From NCBI GenBank assembly GCA_017460885.1, contig JAFUAB010000003.1, forward strand, positions 1-60,785: 60,785 nucleotides of DNA, given 5' to 3'. Shown here in pieces: positions 3,182-35,530 of this stretch. The stretch comes from Lachnospiraceae bacterium. Its GTDB lineage: Bacteria; Bacillota; Clostridia; Lachnospirales; Lachnospiraceae. The notes beneath the pieces were generated by a model. It did no database searches and had not been told where the DNA came from. It saw nothing but the letters and a program-made list of their open reading frames with translations. The number at the start of each line of letters is the position of its first letter. Positions within the stretch are counted from its first letter, which is position 1. The position numbers were made by a program, and so were the translations under genes.

Positions 3182-3242
3182 AATCTCACCTCTTCTTATC
3201 AATTAACATAACAATTCATTTTACCATTTTTACCGTTTTCTA

Positions 3243-4427
3243 TCAAGAATTATATGATCTGCAGCCGGTCATATCCCCCTCTTTGGTATAAACTCTCGGG
3301 ATACGTCTGCCTATATCGCATGCAAGTTCATAATTGAACCTGCCGCTTATGTTTCCGAGCTCTTCCATGGTTATGAACTCACTGCCGTCTTTCCCGATCA
3401 GGGTGACCTTATCTCCGTCGGAGGCCTCCGGAATATCGGTAACATCTATCATGAGCTGATCCATGCACACCCTTCCCCGGATCGGAGCGCGTCTGCCCCG
3501 TACCAGTACCTCTCCTCTGTTCGACAGCGATCTCGGATATCCGTCACCGTATCCGATGGGAACCGTCGCTATACGTCTGCGTGAATCGGCTGTATAGGTT
3601 CCTCCGTAGCTGATCTGGGTTCCCGGTTCCACGTCCTTGATATATACGATATGACTGATCAGGCTCATGACGGGCTTAAGCGGCACATAATCCCTCCTGA
3701 CCTCGTCCGAGGGCATCAGTCCGTACAATGTTATACCCGCTCTGACCAGATCCATGTTTGCCTCCGGCAATTCGATTATCCCTGCGGAATTGGAGCAGTG
3801 GATCAAAGGGATATCGGCTCCCGTTTCGGCTTTGATCCTGTCGGTAAAGCTTCTGAACACCTCGATCTGCCGGTTAACGAAGGTCTTATCGGCTTCATCC
3901 GCACGTGCAAAATGTGTAAATATGCCCTCTACATCTATCCCCGGTGTGGCGAGAGCCTCTTTCACAAAAGCAATACCCGAATCATCGGGACTGATGCCTA
4001 TCCTGCCCATACCCGTATCGGTCTTGATATGAATATGTGCCTTCCTGCCGAGTTGTACAGCTGTTTCGGAGAGCCGTTCAAGCATATCCCTCTTAAAAAC
4101 AGCCGGTCTGATATCCTGACGGATCATATCCTCATAGGCATAGTCAAAGGTGAATCCCAGAATAAGTATCGGCTTCGTTATCCCTGCTTTCCGCAGTTCA
4201 AAGGCTTCCTCCGGACAGGCTGTCGCAAACCCCCAGATGCGTTCCATGGCCTCGTTCTCTACGGCTATCGGTACGGCTCCGTGTCCGTAGCCGTCGGTCT
4301 TGATGACCAGGATCATCCGTGCGGCGGGATCGATATTGGCAAGCATGCTGTCGATATTAAAGCGTACAGCGTCCATGTCGATCCCGGCATACCCCCTCTT
4401 TAAATAATCACATTCTTCAGGTCTCAT
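3243..4427 (-). CDS. alr: Alanine racemase
   Basis: The PLP enzyme (394 aa) interconverts L- and D-alanine for peptidoglycan synthesis in the cytoplasm. The PLP lysine lies in VIKTDGYGHG (K43), a variant of the usual VVKADAYGHG. The catalytic-tyrosine region ISYGGTYTA and the conserved GYGDGYPR and CMDQLMIDVTD blocks are present. The ATG at 4427 follows GGAGAGAATGAA. It is downstream of nnr on the same strand (40-bp gap). This nnr-alr order is common in Firmicutes, although the usual acpS partner is absent here. Confidence 0.96.
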   Translation of the reverse strand: MRPEECDYLKRGYAGIDMDAVRFNIDSMLANIDPAARMILVIKTDGYGHGAVPIAVENEAMERIWGFATACPEEAFELRKAGITKPILILGFTFDYAYEDMIRQDIRPAVFKRDMLERLSETAVQLGRKAHIHIKTDTGMGRIGISPDDSGIAFVKEALATPGIDVEGIFTHFARADEADKTFVNRQIEVFRSFTDRIKAETGADIPLIHCSNSAGIIELPEANMDLVRAGITLYGLMPSDEVRRDYVPLKPVMSLISHIVYIKDVEPGTQISYGGTYTADSRRRIATVPIGYGDGYPRSLSNRGEVLVRGRRAPIRGRVCMDQLMIDVTDIPEASDGDKVTLIGKDGSEFITMEELGNISGRFNYELACDIGRRIPRVYTKEGDMTGCRSYNS

Positions 4428-32307: not shown

Positions 32308-32986
32308 ATGTATTTCCAAGTCCGATTATATCATTGTAATCTCTGATATAGTAATCAGAATTCTTACGTTTTTCCCCGTCACAATATGCCGTGTTGTCAT
32401 CATACACCGCGCAGGCCTTCATTCCGGCTCTGTGAGCTGCGGTGATCCCGTGAGGAACATCCTCAAATACCAGACAGTGTTCTGGAGCGGCACCCAGTTC
32501 CTCCGCTCCTCTCAGATAAACATCGGGCTCGGGTTTGCCGTTATGCACCTCATCTCCGGTAATGACAACATCAATATATCTGTCAAGCTCCAGACGGGGA
32601 GATATCATCTCTACCAGATGTCTGGAATTGCTGGTGCCTATACCCATTTTGATCCCGCGCCTTTTTACCTCCCTTAAGAAGGCTTCCGCGCCGGGCTTAA
32701 ACGGAACCTCGTCCCGATACTTCTGCTCTGCCATGGCATTCCACTCATCCATGATCTCGGGAACCGACAGTGGCAGATTATATCTTTCCTTGGTAAGCTC
32801 AGCCACCTGTTTGAAGCTCATGCCGGAAATGGCCTTCTGGTACACCTCCGGATCTTCCACGATTTGGTATCTCTCCAGGTATTCTACGTCCACCTCGCCC
32901 CATACCCAGAGCGAATCTATCAGCGTGCCGTCCATATCGAAAAGAACGGCATCAACGTCCCTTAGTAATTCATTAACGTCAATCAT
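32261..32986 (-). CDS. HAD-superfamily phosphatase (beta-phosphoglucomutase-like subgroup)
   Basis: The 241-aa cytoplasmic hydrolase has the nucleophile motif VLFDMDGTLIDS (first Asp nucleophile, second acid/base), motif II in GIGTSNSRH, a conserved Lys in VHNGKPEPDVYL and motif IV in VFEDVPHGITAA. The cap is C1-type, as in phosphoglycolate or sugar phosphatases. The start at 32986 (MIDVNELLRDVDAV) follows GAGGTGG and overlaps the end of a truncated thioesterase ORF; the longer ORF to 33064 reads through that fragment in another frame. The substrate is unknown. Confidence 0.9.
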   Translation of the reverse strand: MIDVNELLRDVDAVLFDMDGTLIDSLWVWGEVDVEYLERYQIVEDPEVYQKAISGMSFKQVAELTKERYNLPLSVPEIMDEWNAMAEQKYRDEVPFKPGAEAFLREVKRRGIKMGIGTSNSRHLVEMISPRLELDRYIDVVITGDEVHNGKPEPDVYLRGAEELGAAPEHCLVFEDVPHGITAAHRAGMKACAVYDDNTAYCDGEKRKNSDYYIRDYNDIIGLGNTYEENTKGTIRLYRIS

Positions 32987-33095
32987 TGTCCACCTCGATC
33001 CGGGCTTCTTCCATCCACTTGATGTAATTGGAATGATGTATGACGCCCATCCGGTCCGTTTCATGATATTGTGCCTTGCGTCTGTAAATGAACAT
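32979..33095 (-). pseudogene. Truncated acyl-CoA thioesterase (YbgC/FadM-type), N-terminal 38 residues only
   Basis: An ORF of 38 codons starts at ATG 33095 with an excellent ribosome site (GGGAGG, 7-8 nt upstream). It encodes RKAQYHETDRMGVIHHSNY followed by IKWMEEARIE. This is the opening strand and helix of 4-hydroxybenzoyl-CoA thioesterase-type hotdog proteins, including the active-site Asp (ETDRMG). Full proteins run to about 135 residues. The frame stops (VDND, then TGA) across the HAD start codon, as if a deletion joined the thioesterase start to the next gene. It may still be translated and couple to the HAD gene. Confidence 0.8.
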
Positions 33096-33125: not shown

Positions 33126-34151
33126 TCAATAATAGTTTTCCTTTACATATTCGTCAAAAAGCGGCAGTGAAAGACTCACGTACCCTCTGTCATTGTTTAT
33201 GACTCCCTTTCTCAAGAGTCTTTTCTTGTATGGTCCGAACTCATTGGACTCCATGTCAAGCAATTCCCGGACGTCTTTTATCTTGTGGGATCCGGATACA
33301 GCAATTGCATTTACGACCTTCTTATCCTTGTCAGACAGTTCAGACCAAATCTTGTCATAAACGTATTCCTCCAGATACTGTTTAAGGCTGACCAGGGAAT
33401 CCTCATAGTTACCGCCATTTTTAAACATGGAATAGCCAAGAACCTGAAAAGCGTACGAGTATCCCTTAGTGACCTGTGCCATCTTAATTGCCTCTGATTC
33501 ATCAACCCCCAGATTTCTTCTGTAGCTTGCCGCCATGGTGCCTATACTTAAGGGGCTTAATCTTAATTTCGGTGCTCGGAACAGGAACGTAAGATTTTTC
33601 TCATTCTGCAGATCGTCTATGTTTTCATAAAGGCCGGTCATCAAAAGAAAAACAGGGAGCTCATCCCTGATGAATATCTGGAACACGCTGACAAACTCCC
33701 TGACCTGTTCATTATCCACTGCCTCGTCTACCGTCACCAGAAGTCTTTTATTATGCTTCTTCATGGTTTGCAGCATGCACGCAAGCGCGACCTCAGCGTC
33801 CACGATCTGAGGCTCTCCCTTAACCTCAACTCCGATTCCAAAAAGTGAAAGATTGATCCTGGCACTCTTAAACGTCTGAACCAGCCCATCCGAGCTTCCC
33901 AGCTTGCCCAGCAGGCCTCCAAGCATGTCACGCTCCGTAGAAAGCTCAACTACCTCCCAATCCTTACTGGTCTGAAAGGAATTCTTAACGTTGGTCATGA
34001 AAACAGTCTTGCCTGATCCCCTGACTCCCGTAACCATGTATATCCTCTGGCTGGCTTCCTCAAATGCCCTGATTACTTCATCGGTCTGTGAAATTCTGGA
34101 AACATATTCCTTAGGCTTCTCACCAAATACAAGTGAATAGGGATTTTGCAT
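33126..34151 (-). CDS. AAA-type ATPase with C-terminal winged helix, paralogue 1
   Basis: The 341-aa protein resembles the ATPase_2/COG1672 group (Orc1/Cdc6-like fold). Walker A is GVRGSGKT (~residues 42-49), Walker B LLVTVDEA, and the sensor region is FLLMTGLYENIDDLQN then LTFLFRAPKLRLSPLS. The last ~75 residues look like a winged helix (DKKVVNAIAVSGSHKIKDVRELL, then KRLLRKGVINNDRGYVSL). It is a clear paralogue of the gene at 34328, with the same start MQNP[YF]S. The ribosome site is GAGGTGATCGAAGG. Direct repeats lie 30-115 bp upstream. The function is unknown; DNA-binding autoregulator, signalling STAND-like ATPase or initiator relative are options. Confidence 0.8.
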   Translation of the reverse strand: MQNPYSLVFGEKPKEYVSRISQTDEVIRAFEEASQRIYMVTGVRGSGKTVFMTNVKNSFQTSKDWEVVELSTERDMLGGLLGKLGSSDGLVQTFKSARINLSLFGIGVEVKGEPQIVDAEVALACMLQTMKKHNKRLLVTVDEAVDNEQVREFVSVFQIFIRDELPVFLLMTGLYENIDDLQNEKNLTFLFRAPKLRLSPLSIGTMAASYRRNLGVDESEAIKMAQVTKGYSYAFQVLGYSMFKNGGNYEDSLVSLKQYLEEYVYDKIWSELSDKDKKVVNAIAVSGSHKIKDVRELLDMESNEFGPYKKRLLRKGVINNDRGYVSLSLPLFDEYVKENYY

Positions 34152-34180
34152 CCTTCGATCACCTCATTGTTTTTAACTTT

Positions 34181-34266
34181 TTTATAGTTGTTTATCGTTT
34201 TTAGACTTTTTTATAGTTGTTTATCGTTTTTGGCATTTTACGCTTCCTGATTATACTTGTTTATGG
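34181..34266 (-). repeat. Iteron-like direct repeats upstream of AAA ATPase paralogue 1
   Basis: Two identical units reading GATAAACAACTATAAAA on the minus strand are spaced exactly 29 bp apart (34181-34230). A third, diverged unit (CCATAAACAAGTATAA, 14 of 16 matching) lies 40 bp further upstream at 34251-34266 and contains a possible -10 (TATAAT). The perfect copies lie between this promoter-like site and the start codon. Confidence 0.85.
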
Positions 34267-34327
34267 AAAGTATATTCTTTTTTGTTTTTTTAGTCAATTA
34301 TTCCCCTTAAGAGCTGTTCAGAATTAC

Positions 34328-35383
34328 TCAGCAGTACGTATTTACGTATTCTCCGAAGAACGGAAGGGCAAGCCCAATCCGCCCACGCTTCGTATCTATG
34401 ATTCCTCTTCTGCTCAACCGATCCCTGTATACGGGATAGTTTCCGGGCTTTTCCATGACCGACAGGATTTCCTCGCGGCCATATTCATACCTGTCGGATA
34501 TGAGCCTGACCATTTTCCTGTCATTATCCGTCAGTTCCTCCCAGATCTTTTCATAAGAGTATGCATACAGCTCCGTCTTTAGATCTGCCGTCACCTCTTC
34601 AAGATCAAAACCGGTTCCGGCCTTAAAGCACAGAATGCCCAGTACCTGAAATGCGTATGCATAACCTTTGGTCATTTCCGCCAGCTTCCGGGCCATCGTA
34701 ATGTCTGTTCCAAGCTTTTTCCGGTACATTTCACTCATTCTGACGAGATTCAGGTGTTCAGTTTTCACGGTTGTGGCACGTCTGAAAAAGGTAAGATTTT
34801 TCACGTTATACAATTGCTCAATATTCTCATATAAACCTGTACAAACCAGATAAACCGGATATCCCGCGCGAAGCCACCCGCCAAATTCCAATGCAAAAAT
34901 CTCCATCTCCCGGGTTCGGGATATTTCATCAATGCCTATGAAGATCTTCTTCTTTTTGTCCATGGCGTTTTTTAACGCCGCATCCAATTCCACCCCTATG
35001 TCTTCGATCCTGTTCCCGCTTTCACTTACTCCGATGCCACCGCCGATTCCAAAGACATTTGCTGAAACGTTCAGGTCGATCCCATGAGTAGTTTTACTTA
35101 AGCCTTCTTTGCAAAGAATGGCCAGCATCTGAACGAGCATTTCCCTGGCAGGATTAAGACGGCATACGATCCATCCCTCCCTGCTCCATGTCTCAGACTC
35201 AAATTCCTGTTCCAGCTTAGCCAACAGAACGGTCTTGCCGGACCCTCTCACTCCCGTGATCTTGTAAACAGACTCCGAGGGCAGTTCATAATTGAAATTT
35301 TCCATTATCTCATCCGTCTGAGCCGTGGAAATATATGAATGTTCCGGTATCTTGCTGAAAGTCGTTGAAAAAGGATTCTGCAT
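34328..35383 (-). CDS. AAA-type ATPase with C-terminal winged helix, paralogue 2
   Basis: This 351-aa paralogue of the preceding ATPase shares its architecture. Walker A is GVRGSGKT, Walker B KIFIGIDEIS, followed by YLVCTGLYENIEQLYNVKNL and a C-terminal winged helix (DRKMVRLISDRYEYGREEILSV, then DRLSRRGIIDTKRGRIGL). The two proteins align end to end but differ at most positions, so the duplication is old. AGAGGAA precedes the ATG at 35383. Three direct repeats with a 29-bp period lie 50-130 bp upstream. I cannot assign a function beyond ATP binding and probable DNA binding. Confidence 0.8.
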   Translation of the reverse strand: MQNPFSTTFSKIPEHSYISTAQTDEIMENFNYELPSESVYKITGVRGSGKTVLLAKLEQEFESETWSREGWIVCRLNPAREMLVQMLAILCKEGLSKTTHGIDLNVSANVFGIGGGIGVSESGNRIEDIGVELDAALKNAMDKKKKIFIGIDEISRTREMEIFALEFGGWLRAGYPVYLVCTGLYENIEQLYNVKNLTFFRRATTVKTEHLNLVRMSEMYRKKLGTDITMARKLAEMTKGYAYAFQVLGILCFKAGTGFDLEEVTADLKTELYAYSYEKIWEELTDNDRKMVRLISDRYEYGREEILSVMEKPGNYPVYRDRLSRRGIIDTKRGRIGLALPFFGEYVNTYC

Positions 35384-35433
35384 ATGACGTTCCTCTGTGT
35401 CGCAGGTCAGGATGATCCGCTTTAATCAGGGCA

Positions 35434-35513
35434 TTTTATAATTCTTTATCATTTGAAAATGGTTTTATGATTCTTTATTATTTGATACATATTTTATAAT
35501 TCTTTATCATTTT
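35434..35513 (-). repeat. Three iteron-like direct repeats upstream of AAA ATPase paralogue 2
   Basis: Units reading GATAAAGAATTATAAAA (the middle one AATAAAGAATCATAAAA) begin at 35434, 35463 and 35492 on the plus strand, a strict 29-bp period. They resemble the repeats upstream of paralogue 1. A promoter-like TTGCGG-N17-TAAAAT overlaps the most distal unit. Bases between units are not conserved. Confidence 0.88.
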
Positions 35514-35530
35514 CCGCAATACAAAAACCT

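Follow-up and report, generated by a model that had tools for sequence, protein, structure and literature searches.

We analysed two paralogous ATPase genes that lie side by side at positions 33126–35513 of a 60,785-nt stretch of DNA from a Lachnospiraceae bacterium (contig JAFUAB010000003.1, assembly GCA_017460885.1; this whole stretch is called the window), together with the DNA repeats that precede each of them. Each gene very probably encodes a minimal ATPase of the STAND (signal transduction ATPases with numerous domains) and ORC (origin recognition complex) type, which would bind a private operator array lying over its own promoter, most likely to repress itself. A sequence-only reading of the locus had proposed that each ATPase binds its own repeats through its winged helix, and had called for homologues to be examined for upstream repeats and for covariation between repeat bases and winged-helix residues. 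This examination came out in favour of the proposal: that the winged helix reads the repeats is strongly supported by covariation that recurs in independent lineages.

ATPase 1 (P0001, 341 amino acids, 33126–34151) and ATPase 2 (P0002, 351 amino acids, 34328–35383) are both encoded on the minus strand and are 39% identical. As first described, both open reading frames carry the Walker A motif GVRGSGKT, a Walker B motif (TVDEA or GIDEI) and a C-terminal winged helix, the latter modelled for ATPase 1. In the AlphaFold2 model of ATPase 1, the only one of the two to be modelled (predicted local distance difference test score 94.8), a helix spans residues 302–314 and two strands span residues 318–321 and 324–327. 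By arithmetic from the gene coordinates, the predicted recognition helix (codons 302–314) lies at 33210–33248 and the predicted wing tip (codon 322, an arginine) at 33186–33188, both on the minus strand. Structure comparison showed a fold shared with two archaeal ATPases, with NLR modules and with ORC, and the AAA+ plus winged-helix architecture of Orc1/Cdc6 is present. The module of STAND NTPases, that is, nucleotide-binding domain, helical domain and winged helix, fills the modelled ATPase 1, and no extra sensor or effector domain of these NTPases was found within the 341 and 351 residues of the two proteins. Neither of them passes any Pfam or NCBIfam cut-off: Pfam ATPase_2 (PF01637) scores 25.0 bits for ATPase 1 and 15.0 bits for ATPase 2, under its gathering cut-off of 33.2. 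Compared without cut-offs, the same model matches 16 of the 20 relatives of alignment A1 at E ≤ 0.01 (best E 2.2e-11), and PADLOC models gave weak P-loop matches only, of which the best, to PDC-S01 (E 9.4e-05), covers 53 residues of ATPase 2.

The arrays, read on the minus strand like the genes, are built of 17-bp units, each made of two half-sites of about 8 bp placed 10 bp apart, with a unit period of 29 bp. Array A, upstream of ATPase 1, comprises two identical units (GATAAACAACTATAAAA) at 34180–34196 and 34209–34225, exactly 29 bp apart as originally noted, and a diverged third unit (CATAAACAAGTATAATC) at 34249–34265, which lies 40 bp rather than 29 bp from the second. In array B, upstream of ATPase 2, the steps are indeed exactly 29 bp; the three units, said at first to be alike, are two identical ones (GATAAAGAATTATAAAA, 35434–35450 and 35492–35508) and between them a diverged one with two mismatches (AATAAAGAATCATAAAA, 35463–35479). 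The half-sites are AACGATAAA and AACTATAAA in array A and AATGATAAA and AATTATAAA in array B, and they differ mainly at base 2 (C versus T). This agrees with the earlier remark that the two repeat families diverge at the same internal positions, and fits a difference at residues 306–307, which are G-P in ATPase 1 and P-V in ATPase 2. The arrays are beyond chance. A joint pattern allowing up to three mismatches matched 7 times versus 0.68 expected, a number reached by none of 100 shuffles; five of these matches are array units, one overlaps a unit and one lies at 3228–3244. When the 60 kb were cut into 809 intervals of 150 bp, identical 12-mers at lag 29 occurred only in two overlapping intervals, at array A, and the weaker test of a 7-mer at lag 29 picked out 10 intervals, four of them at arrays A and B. 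Requiring an exact 6-mer at lag 10 in addition to the 7-mer at lag 29 left none of the 809, because the half-sites within a unit of the window are not identical. Throughout the genome, the exact 17-mers of the two arrays occur only at these two promoters; within two mismatches, 2 and 3 sites were found outside the arrays, equal to the reversed control (2 and 3).

The same spacing recurs upstream of homologues, and the repeats belong to the ATPase family. We compared 82 upstream regions picked by protein similarity alone, namely those of two viral loci and of 80 named loci, the best 80 of at least 549 relatives confirmed when GTDB contigs were scanned for conserved motifs, with 614 control upstream regions. 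An identical 7-mer pair was present at lags 10, 19, 29 and 58 in 82%, 80%, 91% and 62% of the ATPase upstreams, versus 1.6%, 1.8%, 0.2% and 0.8% of the controls. The recurring lags were 10, 19, 29, 39, 48, 58 and 68, with shoulders one base off (23% at lag 20, 24% at lag 49), and such pairs were rare elsewhere. Seventy-six of the 82 regions exceeded dinucleotide shuffles at p ≤ 0.05 (those that failed were L078, L097, L105, L106, L115 and L130), and at least 30% of 150 bp lay in recurring 7-mers in 69 of the 82, versus 14 of the 614 controls. A single word finder recovered both spacings in 106 of 118 ATPase upstreams versus 4 of 400 controls, a comparison that matters since the finder is biased to these spacings. 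Among held-out loci, which include more distant relatives, both spacings were found in 47 of 62, less often than among the training loci. The 99 fully resolved loci display 40 distinct half-site words, and within the window's own genome the other paralogues carry separate words (GATATAAA, AGTGTAAT, ATTATATA and GTTGTGAA) besides the two of the window; the words of the copies L008 and L009 are poorly resolved.

We then asked which residues accompany which bases. The covariation set comprised 105 of 118 distinct loci; six with fewer than four half-site copies were left out, as were seven of uncertain frame (L008, L009, L014, L018, L022, L034 and L038). All half-sites were read in coding-strand orientation, the only one scored, and were framed with a TAAA anchor for 91 of 112 loci; frames were set by hand for L021, L026 and L033, the last two being reset again before the independent-pair test. 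Over all alignment columns, base 1 covaried with residue 322 (z 9.0), and residue 306 covaried with base 3 (z 5.9) and base 4 (z 5.4). Other leading columns were 307, 302 and 306 for base 2, and 307 and 314 for bases 6 and 7; base 8 had its strongest columns beyond the winged helix, with residue 307 in fourth place. The covarying residues sit in the modelled recognition helix (302–314), where glycine 306 and proline 307 of ATPase 1 fall in the family columns that follow bases 2–4 and 6–7, and in the modelled wing turn (322). The correspondence is sharp at two positions. Arginine at 322 goes with A at base 1 in 40 of 40 loci and histidine in 17 of 18, and tyrosine goes with G or C in 30 of 34 determined cases; two of the four A exceptions are a frame error and were set to G for the independent-pair test. 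Asparagine at 306 goes with AG at bases 3–4 in 42 of 42 loci, AG being found in 3 of the 63 without it. At base 2, proline 307 goes with C in 48 of 65 loci and valine 307 with T in 16 of 21. When only 45 loci of less than 60% identity were kept, residue 322 held for base 1 (z 7.7) and 306 for bases 3 and 4 (z 5.4 and 3.9), and the leading columns at bases 6 and 7 were 307 and 314, respectively, but base 2 went with residue 309 and base 8 with residue 127. Independent pairs were drawn from a tree of the ATPase part alone, the covarying columns having been chosen on the same data: changes at residue 322 and base 1 coincided in 13 of 15 pairs (two unchanged, none opposite) and those at residue 306 and bases 3–4 in 9 of 10 (one unchanged, none opposite). 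Judged by these alignments, the half-site sequence tracks wing residue 322 and recognition-helix residue 306, and less clearly residue 307.

The relation was also assessed in 65 held-out loci, hand-picked from the family and class homologue rows, mostly full-length, and framed by script alone. All but one (L201) gave the gene, 62 shared less than 85% identity with the training set and among themselves, and 59 had at least four copies. Here arginine or histidine 322 went with A in 26 of 28 loci, tyrosine 322 with G or C in 20 of 23, and the pair N306-P307 with AG in 5 of 5. In the 59 loci alone, residue 322 was the top column for base 1 and 306 that for base 3, the latter still at 60% identity (38 rows). 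Covariation of this kind, which an autorepressor would be expected to have with its operator, is thus present and is weaker in the held-out loci alone.

Several observations weigh against a private operator read by the winged helix. Firstly, changes at residue 307 agree with base changes in no more than 2 of 5 and 3 of 5 independent pairs, the rest being unchanged. Secondly, in the held-out loci asparagine 306 without proline 307 went with AG in only 1 of 8 cases, the top columns for bases 2, 4, 6, 7 and 8 in the 59 loci lay outside the recognition helix and wing, and at 60% identity residue 322 fell outside the top five for base 1. Thirdly, fewer than four copies were found in 6 of 118 loci (L041, with 138 bp of upstream sequence, L042, L097, L103, L119 and L130), and the TTGACA-like hexamer is missing from its expected place in 27 of 105. 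Fourthly, the words of same-genome paralogues have an identity of 0.61, versus 0.57 predicted from protein divergence (71 pairs); they are no more different than this divergence predicts, hence no selection against cross-talk is seen, and the idea of selection for orthogonality among such paralogues was rejected. Lastly, repeats of the same sequence found widely without an ATPase gene had been named beforehand as evidence that would tell against the proposal, and this was observed in part: a strict CAGTAAA array occurs in 8 of 397 genomes, and in four of the eight no intact ATPase adjoins it. Of these eight, four have an ATPase behind the array, in one a fragment of the ATPase C terminus lies immediately 5' of it, and in three (G008, G299 and G778) no ATPase was found in about 1.5 kb behind it. 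The arrays without an ATPase may be the remains of decayed loci. The half-site array of G008 (L266:1501, G008:C28) stands just before two genes that resemble an AbiEi/AbiEii pair of the AbiE toxin-antitoxin kind.

The position of the arrays points to self-control. By consensus, a candidate sigma-70-like promoter of ATPase 1 (34269–34297, minus strand; TTGACT at 34292–34297, 17 bp, TATACT at 34269–34274) precedes array A. That of ATPase 2 (35491–35519, minus strand; TTGCGG at 35514–35519, 17 bp, TAAAAT at 35491–35496), likewise recognized by consensus and with two mismatches in its −35 hexamer, has its −10 hexamer inside the second half-site, which is the commonest register among relatives. In 78 of 105 loci, versus 26 of 105 mononucleotide shuffles, the 45 bp that precede the first half-site contain a TTGACA-like hexamer, which stands exactly 9 nt before the half-site in 41 of the 78. 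In these 78 loci, the best −10 hexamer at spacers of 16–18 was TAAAAT in 38 and TATAAT in 9, and the spacer was 17 in 56. Judged by consensus hexamers, the operator of the presumed autorepressor thus overlaps its own promoter, and the earlier suggestion that each ATPase controls itself draws its support from position, a promoter-like hexamer pair overlapping the array in many relatives. Given this register and the absence of excess genomic sites over the reversed controls, we infer that negative autoregulation is the simplest reading.

Under negative autoregulation, each gene would give a minimal ATPase made up solely of a nucleotide-binding domain, a helical domain and a winged helix. As the comparison of relatives shows, the array is a clock of direct half-sites, spaced by 10 and 19 bp in alternation with a period of 29, and its word is private to each paralogue. 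Binding would cover the −10 region, so that the ATPase would repress its own transcription, as the position of the array suggests. The fold is consistent with one protomer per half-site, and with pairs and pairs-of-pairs that would assemble head to tail along the direct repeats; the nucleotide state could switch this assembly, and hence repression. The mode of action is probably that of an autorepressor on a cooperative operator. That the ATPase senses or answers mobile DNA is a guess.

The opposite sign of control, in which the ATPase activates its own promoter or forms a bistable switch from an array downstream of and over the promoter, appears unlikely. STAND regulators such as MalT are activators, and MalT is a large multidomain protein that acts on other genes. 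IniR, whose 818 residues include an SdiA-like DNA-binding domain and a domain resembling MalT, has an ATPase domain likened to SSO1545, and binds and induces the iniBAC promoter on which it acts (PMC5760070). The likeness of the window ATPases to these proteins is that of a STAND-type ATPase controlling transcription; they differ from the multidomain IniR and its action on iniBAC in consisting, at 341 and 351 residues, of the module only. Against activation, the commonest register has the first pair of half-sites overlap the −10 region and the rest between promoter and start codon, and this is a usual place for repressor sites.

Less probable still is the other origin suggested for the pair, an Orc1/Cdc6-like initiator with iterons forming the replicator of an integrated or decayed plasmid. 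Orc1/Cdc6 genes have repeats beside them that are specific to each protein family (PMC3528665), and the likeness to the Orc1/Cdc6 and origin recognition box (ORB) system lies in an AAA+/winged-helix protein with cognate repeats beside its gene. The layout differs: the repeats of the window are direct and set on a 10/19-bp clock, with a promoter-like site on one side of them and the start codon on the other. Neither inverted ORB elements nor an AT-rich unwinding element were found at arrays A and B; there are no inverted copies at array B and one unrelated 12-nt inverted pair at array A, and the GC skew keeps its sign at the locus. The initiator idea is therefore not supported, although the fold is ORC/STAND-like. 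Lastly, it is barely credible that the repeats bind no protein (phased A-tracts, curved DNA or leader RNA) and that words and proteins are associated by descent: most half-sites do end in TAAA at a spacing near the helical pitch, and related proteins share words (word identity versus N-terminal-part identity, r 0.49), yet base-residue changes recur across independent pairs, word identity follows residues 300–324 once the N-terminal part is allowed for (partial r 0.36, versus 0.17 for residues 263–299), and half-sites without an A-tract exist (GTTGTGAC, GTTATGGA and CTACTAAC).

Among proteins of known structure, the archaeal ATPases PABY2304 (2qen) and SSO1545 (2fna) have a fold like that of ATPase 1 at an identity of only 14–15%, and we know of no operator for either. 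The NB-ARC modules of plant NLRs and of CED-4/Apaf-1 belong to the same fold class by structure comparison; to our knowledge, no sequence-specific reading of DNA by their winged helix has been described. The NLR Rx1 is reported to bind, bend and melt DNA (PMC4599002). A literature search over open-licence PubMed Central papers returned no description of an ATPase family with such arrays. Tentatively, and with less than even confidence, the family could be viewed as a living intermediate between ORC initiators and NLR immune ATPases, in which ATP-dependent head-to-tail protomers would sit on a 10/19-bp promoter ruler with a freely evolving residue-base code and a private address for each copy, the whole being a self-limiting accessory that would have spread through Lachnospiraceae, Coriobacteriia and Actinomycetes.

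The ATPase gene is patchily distributed. Counting the window's genome in each case, 4 of 7 genomes of the genus contain homologues, as do 66 of 397 Lachnospiraceae genomes (52 of 299 with ATPase 2 as query) and 11 of 391 genomes of a class sample, 10 of those 11 being of the same family. The best 80 relatives belong to Lachnospiraceae, other Clostridia and Coriobacteriia, with a few labelled Spirochaetales or Erysipelotrichaceae. The window's genome itself has 10 matches, nine of them full-length; around one paralogue, 4,032 bp are identical on two contigs (L003 and L004; G000:C32 and G000:C38), hence either a recent duplication or an assembly overlap. None of 50,697 phage records has a match to the ATPase, two viral contigs carry a homologue, and among 72,556 plasmid records there are 22 with a match, from genera such as Arthrobacter, Lactobacillus, Rhodococcus and Bifidobacterium. 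In nine plasmid homologues, lags of about 10 bp plus 28–39 bp are clear in three (Pseudobutyrivibrio, Lactobacillus crispatus and Arthrobacter), whereas two (Collinsella and Pseudomonas) show them weakly and the remaining four have either no repeats or repeats of a different type. On the Arthrobacter plasmid pAD51 (L144), half-sites GTTTCACC stand at 9–10, 18–19 and 28 bp upstream of position 2998, a ruler that resembles the family clock with a quite different word. On a Rhodococcus plasmid (L148), a perfect direct repeat of about 20 bp, 53 bp from start to start, precedes a distant homologue, upstream of position 2980; this spacing is unlike the family clock. Two candidates for phage decoys did not stand out clearly from control and were rejected: the strict CAGTAAA pattern occurred in four viral contigs (two of which share one stretch) versus two in the reversed control, and the ATGATAAA pattern, which had no control of its own, occurred in three viral contigs and proved on reading to be plain 10-bp tandem repeats.

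No conserved partner gene was found when the 699 flanking open reading frames of at least 80 amino acids around the 80 named loci were clustered: of the largest cluster (13 loci), a single member lies no farther than 600 bp from the ATPase, and none of the 14 clusters listed has more than three members so close. In the same genus, a HAD gene lies directly behind queA in G003 and a 194-residue gene lies behind queA in G002 and G004, so that the 2.5-kb ATPase pair was either gained here or lost elsewhere; neither gene was found in the available flank in G001, G005 and G006. No terminal repeats were noticed at the junctions inspected, a systematic search not having been made. Before the HAD-like gene, a 38-codon open frame read by eye (32979–33095, minus strand; MFIYRRKAQYHETDRMG...) resembles the beginning of a truncated acyl-CoA thioesterase.

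In STAND and ORC ATPases, the winged helix is usually regarded as a structural or origin-binding domain. This family offers dozens of natural ATPase variants, each with its own target, and specificity could thus be read from sequence alone. The arrays give a function-related handle on a family whose window members fail all Pfam and NCBIfam cut-offs, and the 40 words of the 99 resolved loci may represent as many possible repressor-operator pairs.
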